Origin: Caldilineaceae bacterium
GTDB taxonomy: Bacteria; Chloroflexota; Anaerolineae; Caldilineales; Caldilineaceae
Direction: 5' to 3'
DNA length: 56,499 bases
Assembly (NCBI GenBank): GCA_020433455.1
Contig: JAGRCP010000063.1
Span: forward strand, 1-56,499
The translations under genes were made by a program, and so were the position numbers. The notes under the pieces were generated by a model, which worked only from the letters and a program-made list of their open reading frames with translations, was not told the origin of the DNA and did not search any database. Of the stretch, positions 34,514-36,775 are shown piece after piece (the stretch's first letter is position 1; the number at the start of each line of letters is the position of its first letter).

Positions 34514-36775
34514 TTACGGCGGCATGACTTCCACTGCTTGGACGTGCACGTCTCCCAGCGCGGATGGCGTGATGGTGATGATAACTGGATCCGCGCTCGT
34601 ATCCAGGGGGATGGTCACGCTGTTGCCTCCGGGCGCGGGAGCGAGGTCGTACGCCTCTGCGCCGGTGGTGAGCCGGGCAGTGGCCTGGCCGGCTGTGCGA
34701 TAGCGAATGCTAACCCGGCTGCCCGGCGGCGCGTGGTAGATGAGCAATTCCGCCGGGCCCAAAAGCGCGCGGCTGGAGGCCGTCTCATCCAGCGGGCTCC
34801 AGTTGAGCGGACCCAGGACAGGATAAGGCTGGACGGTTTCCGGCGCGGTAACGCGGTAGACGGTCAGCCGATCGTCGGTATGGATGGGCTCCTGTCCGGC
34901 AAAGAGGGCCGCGGCCAACTCCTCGGTGTAGGTGCGCTCCAGGCCGCCCGGCATCTTGTAGCGATCCAACGTCACGTACTCTATGCCCAAATCGTGGAGC
35001 ACGGTCATGCCCGCTGCGACCGGGTCTACGCTCAGAATGTCCGGCCCCAGATGACGAAAATGCTGGAGCACGGGCGTGCGCTCGGTCAGGGTGCGGGGAT
35101 CGTCCCGGCTGATGTAGGCCACGGCCAGCGGGCGCTGATGCACGGTTTGGTAGAGGAGATAGCCCGGCCGGTCGTAGTTCATGGGCAGGTTGAGCAACGC
35201 GCCGTCGCCCGGCTCATGCGCCAGGGTTGCGTACCAGTCGGGCGTATCAGGCGGGCTCATGGGGTAGGGAGCGACCCAATATTCGGCCAGGATCAGCAGG
35301 CCCGCCAGCGCGATCGCGGCGGTCTGCCTTCCTCGTCTGCCGTTGGCGGACCACATCAGTTGCGCCAGGCCTGCGCCTGCAAGGACGGCCACGGCCAACT
35401 GGACCATGACGGCGTAACGGCTGACGCTGCGGCTCAGGCGGACGAAGCTGGAGAAATAGGCCAGAATGCCAAAGGGCGTAAAGTGGAGTGAGAGTTCCTC
35501 TGTTGCGGGAATATCGGCCGCGGTGATGTTGCCCCAGTGGATCACCGGCCCCAGCGCCATGGCGAAGAAGAAGAGCGCGGCTGCGATCCACAGCCCCATC
35601 CGGCGGCCGCGCCACGCGCCCAGCAGGGCCAGGAGCAGCGCGGTGTAGCCGATGCCGATGGTGCGCTCGCTCACCGGCGCGATCTGGTTGCCGATCCAGG
35701 TAAAGCTATCGGGGCGGAAAAGGGTGTGAAGGCGATTGGGGATCAGAAAATCCATGACGCTCGCGCTGAGAATGTAGAGTTCCTGGGCCGGGCGCACCAT
35801 GAAGGAGAAGGCTCGGGTCTCGCGCAGCATGGGGATGAGCCAAAAGCTGAGCGCGACAAAAAAGAGCGCGCCGGCCAGGGCTGCGGGCAAAACCAGGCGC
35901 AGCAGCTCCGGCAGACCGGCAAAGATATGTCCCCCCTTTTGCATTCCTGCTGAATTTTTTTCGCCGACTTGCTGCTCAACTTTCCCTTGCGGGGGCGTCA
36001 GCCAGGTCCACAGAACAGCGATCCCTGTAAAGAAGACCAGATAGAGCACAAAATACCAATCACACAATCCCGTCAGGATCAGAAAGAGCGCGGTCATTGC
36101 TGCTTCGCGTAGCCACGGTTTGCGACCGCGTGCAGCCTTCAGCGCGCGCAGGAGATAAAGCATGTAGAAGGGCAGCCACTGCAAGCTCAACACCTGCATG
36201 TGGCCCAGGAGATGGGCCATGTGAAAGGGGGAAAGGGTGAAGATCATGCCCGCGATGAGGGGGGCGAAAAATTGGAGATTGGGAGATTGGGAGATTGGGG
36301 GATTGGGGGGGGGTCCACCGCGGTCCCTAATCTTCAATCTTTGATCTTCAATCTTTGATCTTTGGTCTCCACTCTTTATCACCCACGTCGTGAGCAAAAA
36401 CGCCCCGTATCCGCCCAGGGTGAAGGCGAGGAAGACGGCGAAGTTGTAGGCGGGGATGAGGCCTGCGCTGAGCTGGACGGGCAGGCCGACGAGGCCGTTG
36501 AAGGGGTTCAGCGTTTGGAAGTAGAGCGTGACGCCCGTGGGGTGAAAGAGCAGATCGGTGGCCAGGGGATTGACGTGGCGGTCGATCAGCGCGACCTTGA
36601 TCCACCAGAGGTTCCAGTAGTTTTGCCAGCCGTCAAACCCGTCGCCCGGGATAGCCGCTGCGACCTCCCGGATTGCGGGCCAGGTCATAAGGGCCGTGAG
36701 CAGGAAATATGCCAGCAGGGCCGCGGCGTGCCGCCCCATGCGCATGGTCCTCACAGGCATGTGTGACTGCTTCAT
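34514..36775 (-). CDS. Large polytopic membrane protein, GT-C-like, with repeat-rich internal segment
   Basis: 753 residues. ATG 36775 overlaps the stop of the upstream cyclodeaminase by four bases; the frame is open further upstream but there reads through that gene. About ten membrane segments span residues ~15-500, with [15 protein letters not shown] after the first helix, as in GT-C-type glycosyltransferases of the DUF2079/PMT-like kind, followed by an extracytoplasmic beta-rich tail (~520-753). A hydrophilic stretch near residues 135-168 is encoded by tandem repeats and a run of nine C, unlike the rest of the gene. Likely transfers sugar from a lipid carrier to a surface acceptor, by inference only. 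Confidence 0.7.
36271..36371 (-). repeat. In-gene tandem repeats and poly-C/G tract
   Basis: Within the membrane-protein gene. On the coding strand AAGATCAAAGATTG (14 bases) occurs about 2.5 times, then after ~15 bases a run of nine C, then four near-identical 8-base units of the type TCCCAATC. Unit lengths of 14, 8 and 1 are not multiples of three, so slippage would shift the frame. Confidence 0.85.

Follow-up and report, generated by a model that had tools for sequence, protein, structure and literature searches.

Do repeat units that break the reading frame inside a gene for a membrane protein mark an on/off switch, or has the gene picked up DNA of another kind? The question arises at positions 36271 to 36371 of the window, by which we mean the whole 56,499-nucleotide stretch analyzed here (contig C147 of a Caldilineaceae genome, G000, of 5.25 Mb in 172 contigs). 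An earlier note on this DNA had proposed that the segment is phase variable and had also remarked that it looks like intergenic repeats now incorporated into the gene.

The repeat segment and its host protein

We found that the repeats are real and that all of them lie inside the minus-strand open reading frame 34514-36745. A tandem repeat listing gave GGAGATTG in 4.2 copies at 36274-36307 (96% match) and ATCTTCAATCTTTG in 2.4 copies at 36330-36362 (100% match), and a run of nine G's accompanies them. As the note had stated, the unit lengths of 1, 8, and 14 bases (the last being 7+7) are not multiples of 3, so that gain or loss of a unit breaks the frame. The octamer array is about four units long, with a perfect run of 33 bases. 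The description of the repeats was otherwise incomplete: the octamer and heptamer blocks together make up a single imperfect hairpin, one arm each (inverted-repeat P = 0.01 against shuffles; RNA fold, z of -2.3 at -27.7 kcal/mol). The features are as follows.

34514-36745, minus strand: host gene, a 743-aa membrane protein of predicted GT-C fold (ATG at 36745-36743, stop at 34516-34514; open reading frame)
36271-36371, minus strand: probable captured two-armed repeat element, encoding about residues 125 to 159, a low-confidence loop in the AlphaFold model
36329-36377, minus strand: coding-strand 5' arm, made of GATT/GATC heptamers of the CAAAGAT TGAAGAT type, read as KIEDQRLKI (tandem repeat rows, TRF)
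36314-36328, no strand assigned: hairpin center, TCCACCGCGGTCCCT on the plus strand (sequence and fold)
36274-36307, minus strand: coding-strand 3' arm, made of AATCTCCC octamers in 4.2 copies (TRF); the unit with 205 genome matches
36305-36313, plus strand: run of nine G's, C9 on the coding strand, Pro-Pro-Pro (run count in an 855-kb sample)

In the 855-kb sample, G/C runs of at least 9 number 4 in total, against about 21 expected for independent bases, and the run at 36305-36313 is the only one inside a gene. On the template strand, this run and the octamers together complete the G-quadruplex-type motif GGGAGATTGGGAGATTGGGGGATTGGGGGGGGG; in sequence, the G-rich plus strand at 36281-36313 matches such a motif, with four G-tracts. 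Rfam returned only subthreshold matches. We rejected an identity with MIR2118 (30 bits against a cut-off of 85), which is a match of hairpin shape below the Rfam cut-off.

For the host protein, no Pfam or NCBIfam family scored over its cut-off, and a PDB search by sequence profile gave no match. We obtained an AlphaFold model from a 36-sequence alignment, with a mean pLDDT of 89.3. Structure comparison of this model gave a Z of 25.0 over 465 residues to yeast OST/STT3, 22.2 to AftD, and 19.2 to ArnT, and the top matches (OST/STT3, AglB, PglB, AftD, and ArnT) all lie at Z values of 18 to 25 over about 450 to 475 residues. By this comparison, the host protein has a GT-C glycosyltransferase fold, with a putative transferase activity. 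D35 and D38, candidates for the acidic residues expected in the first extracytoplasmic loop of such transferases, are invariant across the 36 sequences. Model confidence is high except at the insert: repeat-encoded residues 131 to 150 have pLDDT values of 61 to 66 and fall between helices 96-127 and 155-170. With the fold match and this low-pLDDT interhelix stretch, the earlier assignments of a GT-C-like membrane protein and of a predicted loop both hold.

The host has matches in 42 of the 61 genomes searched, and orthologues are present in most of the sampled Caldilineaceae genera. A paralogue on contig C142 carries three separate inserts, one of them in the corresponding loop, and there the insert reads KIEDQRLKI, as it does in the window. 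The GT-C-like paralogue at L074 (8045-11059, minus strand) has a C-terminal ILEI domain (PF15711; E value, 3.7e-13), which is unexpected on a bacterial membrane protein.

A dispersed repeat family that also lies inside conserved genes

In the window, 3 near-matches of the 17-mer GGAGATTGGGAGATTGG stand against an expectation of 0.17. We counted this probe genome-wide at up to two mismatches, with the reversed probe as a control, and found 205 copies against 0, so the repeats are beyond chance. We then defined clusters as GATT/AATC units spaced 7 to 8 bases apart and placed them relative to genes, called by a home-made dicodon script, in a 1.52-Mb sample of the genome that includes the window. 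There were 61 clusters in the sample and none in the reversed sequence; 31 were intergenic, 7 were at gene borders, and 23 were inside genes. The density was 14.8 per 100 kb outside genes and 1.8 inside, a difference of about 8-fold, and because the sampled contigs are a subset known through matches, the absolute densities are not unbiased figures for the genome.

Heptamers and octamers both occur in the family. Some copies are two armed, with a GATT side followed by an AATC side, and one-armed copies are common; the order of the arms (F..R versus R..F, 9 versus 5; P = 0.42) showed no significant bias. In 300 other Chloroflexota genomes, the GATT unit hardly occurs. We concluded that the segment represents one copy of a dispersed heptamer/octamer repeat with two arms that is characteristic of Caldilineaceae. 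The remark that repeat DNA of an intergenic type had become part of the gene was borne out by the genome-wide matches and by the presence of clusters both between and within genes.

The genes that hold copies are not limited to membrane proteins. Pfam-confirmed hosts are a fused glycyl-tRNA synthetase (GlyRS), RecD2, Mfd, CarB, a class II HMG-CoA reductase, MetW, DUF2079, and PMT_2, and the other hosts are several GT-C-like and other polytopic membrane proteins. In GlyRS, RecD2, CarB, and Mfd, domains flank the insert on both sides; in the fused GlyRS, the insert is residues 303 to 319, between the alpha and beta domains. No dimeric-type GlyRS reaches its cut-off in this genome, and the interrupted enzyme is therefore the only GlyRS detected. 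In the same loop of the RecD2 at L207, we noted an in-frame peptide, NAKAQRGKGAEEERFNAEAQRRKGAEKRG, of a different, internally repetitive sequence, possibly from another captured repeat family.

Reading frame and the case for a switch

The gene finder used here calls only open frames, so that for the 23 in-gene clusters of G000 an open frame is not independent evidence, and loops of orthologues are the better test of frame. We found that all 31 element-bearing loops examined keep the reading frame and are flanked by protein sequence at either end; they come from five gene families. The strand of the arrays points the same way. GAAGATT arrays hold TGA in every frame, whereas AATCTTC and AATCTCC arrays are open, and a bias toward the AATC strand is therefore expected if the arrays are translated. 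Of 26 in-gene arrays, 21 had the AATC strand as the coding strand (P = 0.0025). This supports selective removal of unreadable copies. Among coding arrays, the stop-containing AATCTTT was less frequent than AATCTTC, as a trend only (P = 0.20).

These data bear on the proposal that gain or loss of units in the G9 run, the octamer array, or the heptamer array toggles the glycosyltransferase and thereby varies the cell surface. Contingency loci of this kind are confined to nonessential, typically surface, genes. The segment resembles them in having tandem units that are not a multiple of three within a coding frame. Besides the frame-breaking lengths of all the units, the proposal draws on a G9 run that is unusually long for a gene of G000, on a host of GT-C glycosyltransferase fold, and on perfect runs that are longer in in-gene arrays than in intergenic ones (median, 26 versus 15 bp; P = 0.003), a difference that fits recent arrival and that slippage would fit too. 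In contrast to contingency loci, however, the element belongs to a family that is dispersed and denser outside genes, and it also lies in essential single-copy genes. A segment that switched frame in the sole detected GlyRS would be expected to be lethal, which is the main argument against phase variation, and switching in CarB, Mfd, or RecD2 would be lethal or harmful as well. None of the 31 loops was in an OFF frame, and the array in the window is short. The data on essential hosts and on frame do not support a phase-variation switch, and we consider one at this locus very unlikely. Frame-breaking repeats in a surface-type gene are, on their own, no evidence of phase variation.

We consider it probable instead that the segment is a dispersed, roughly palindromic, unit-built element that resides in a permissive GT-C loop and is kept there as an in-frame, stop-free insert. 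The element would have landed in the interhelix loop of the GT-C-fold protein or replaced an earlier element there. Judging from the open frames and the coding-strand bias, its translation would give a flexible insert about 35 residues long, and the element may have been retained because it is in frame and stop free and the loop is permissive. Interdomain loops of essential enzymes would take up elements likewise, and copies in harmful positions or frames would be purged. Unit numbers probably shift by slippage on an evolutionary rather than a switching timescale. We infer that the element is mobile or copied between sites, and it is presumably neutral or slightly harmful to its host. It has the look of genomic clutter that is tolerated and translated, not of an on/off switch.

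An assembly artifact or misassembly could be suspected in a metagenome-derived genome of 172 contigs with short repeats. We give this practically no weight, since across five gene families, and in many genomes independent of one another, the insertions are in frame and between homologous flanks.

Different hairpins in the same loops across genera

In orthologue alignments, we found that the insert sites are common across genera while the repeat sequences differ. The GT-C orthologues lack the particular insert of the window, a point that the note had proposed to check. The GT-C loop holds GGGTATT hairpins in L041 and L045, GGGGACT or GGGGATC types in L037 and L035, GATT types in L051, unrelated palindromes in L048 (CCTTCGAGGAAGCT...AGCTTCCTCGAAGG) and L050, and tandem units without an inverted arm in L052 and L056. 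The interdomain loops of CarB and Mfd likewise contain different inverted repeats by genus, and the GlyRS linker and, in part, the RecD2 loop show the same pattern. By comparison with shuffles that keep base composition only, 9 of 22 GT-C orthologue loops, which were picked after the alignments had been seen, were inverted-repeat positive, against 18 of 488 other sequence windows of the same genes (Fisher P = 2.5e-7). A second variable loop, or sequence upstream of the start, accounts for several of these 18.

For two unit families, the units in a loop match the repeats of the genome around it. GGGTATT had 0 matches in G000, 131 in G034, and 245 in G014, and the loops of G034 and G014 carry GGGTATT. 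For GGGGACT, which G000 lacks (0 matches), there were 386 matches in G027, and the G027 loop carries this unit. We concluded that, in the two unit families tested, the loop units are the abundant repeat of their own genome. The reversed GGGGACT control, GGTCAGGGGTCAGGGG, was itself abundant in genus g9 (137 matches in G031, with others in further g9 genomes); this genus seems to own a heptamer family of another sequence.

That many genera have differing inverted repeats in one and the same loop could mean that the hairpin is useful in place, for example, if the mRNA hairpin made the ribosome pause at a boundary between helices or domains during folding, so that unrelated hairpins are retained at the same spot. 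Consistently with this, arms match better within a locus than across loci (mean, 14.3 versus 9.0 for GT-C and 16.7 versus 9.2 for CarB). However, 13 of the 22 GT-C orthologue loops lack a detectable hairpin, the L052 and L056 loops hold only tandem units, and the permissiveness of a loop explains the position without any function. We regard a useful hairpin as quite unlikely.

A tolerated insert may also have reached these loops in more than one way. In a variant of the preferred explanation, there was one ancient insertion per loop, and in each lineage its units were rewritten in place through slippage, conversion by that genome's own dominant repeat, or template switching at hairpins. CarB speaks for this variant, as its loops hold elements in many genera, GATT-like ones in several. 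In-place turnover is plausible for CarB, whose loop occupancy a single ancestral insertion followed by unit turnover would also explain. A precedent is the P6b hairpin of the Nostoc trnL(UAA) intron, where class II heptamers (NNTGAGT) have repeatedly been replaced by class I heptamers (TDNGATT) at one site (PMC4476775). Against the variant, the palindromes in the L048 and L050 GT-C loops are structurally unrelated, and G012, the closest relative of G000 by identity, is without the RecD2 and GlyRS inserts. Fresh insertion is therefore favored for RecD2 and GlyRS, and as an account of all the loops we find a single ancient insertion each somewhat doubtful. Tentatively, loops of conserved proteins may be recurrent docking sites: active copying would homogenize the units of each genome even in essential genes, and genus-specific hairpins would arrive or be rewritten in the CarB, Mfd, GlyRS, and GT-C loops. 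We rate this as possible rather than probable.

Among the genomes compared, no pair of an empty and a filled site came from close strains, and accordingly neither a target-site duplication nor an element boundary was seen. Looking for a mobilizing enzyme, we found two Y1_Tnp genes, and a pattern search showed no GATT/AATC arrays at either locus. Mobilization of the RAYT/REP type was accordingly rejected, as neither Y1 transposase gene is flanked by the element. At one Y1 transposase (RAYT-like) gene (L224, G000:C41), we observed several flanking copies of a different REP-like palindrome of its own, GGACCGGCACGGAGGCCGGTCCCTAC.

Several known systems share parts of this architecture. Rickettsia palindromic elements (RPE; Ogata et al. 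2000) are 105 to 146 bp long with a fixed consensus, and they enter conserved genes in frame and also sit between genes (PMC2229807). Like RPE and their Wolbachia counterparts, the elements described here are dispersed and in part palindromic repeats, both intergenic and in frame in conserved enzymes, where they would be read through. Compared by architecture, they differ from RPE in being built of tandem units of 7 or 8 bases, with a genus-specific sequence and a variable number of units per arm. The Nostoc trnL P6b case shares GATT-type heptamer stems in a permissive loop of a functional gene and the repeated exchange of unit classes at a single site, but there the site is a loop of a cyanobacterial RNA intron and here the loops are protein-coding ones of Chloroflexota. 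G-rich heptamer repeats are also described for Xanthomonas (GGGAATC) and Nostoc PCC 7120 (GGGGA[C/T]T, with few inverted pairs in Nostoc) (PMC4692102). These repeats are likewise dispersed, depleted from coding sequence, about four units long, and G-quadruplex type on the G-rich strand, and the GGGGACT of the Nostoc type is the unit also found in G027. Unlike the elements here, they are mainly an intergenic feature there, and cross-genus capture in loops of conserved proteins is not described in the sections consulted.

We found no description of such elements in Chloroflexota in the open-access literature. What is new is that unit-built coding hairpins recur in the same protein loops from genus to genus. 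Until now, Rickettsia and Wolbachia were the chief known source of coding palindromes, and heptamer hairpins were known from intergenic DNA and a cyanobacterial intron loop. The filled, differently filled, and empty sites form a natural series for testing the origin, turnover, and cost of intragenic repeats.

Two further features of the window stand apart from the GATT family. At 49128-49186, a second hairpin has near-perfect 20-base arms (AGAAATTAAGGAATGAGGAA ... TTCCTCATTCCTTAATTTCT); it is intergenic, adjoins the end of the gene at 49193-50836 (minus strand), and is built on the unit GGAATGA, unlike the GATT family. At 33481-34139 (minus strand), an 85-aa RelE-like protein is followed by a 134-aa helix-turn-helix protein, which, judged by eye, suggests a toxin-antitoxin layout.
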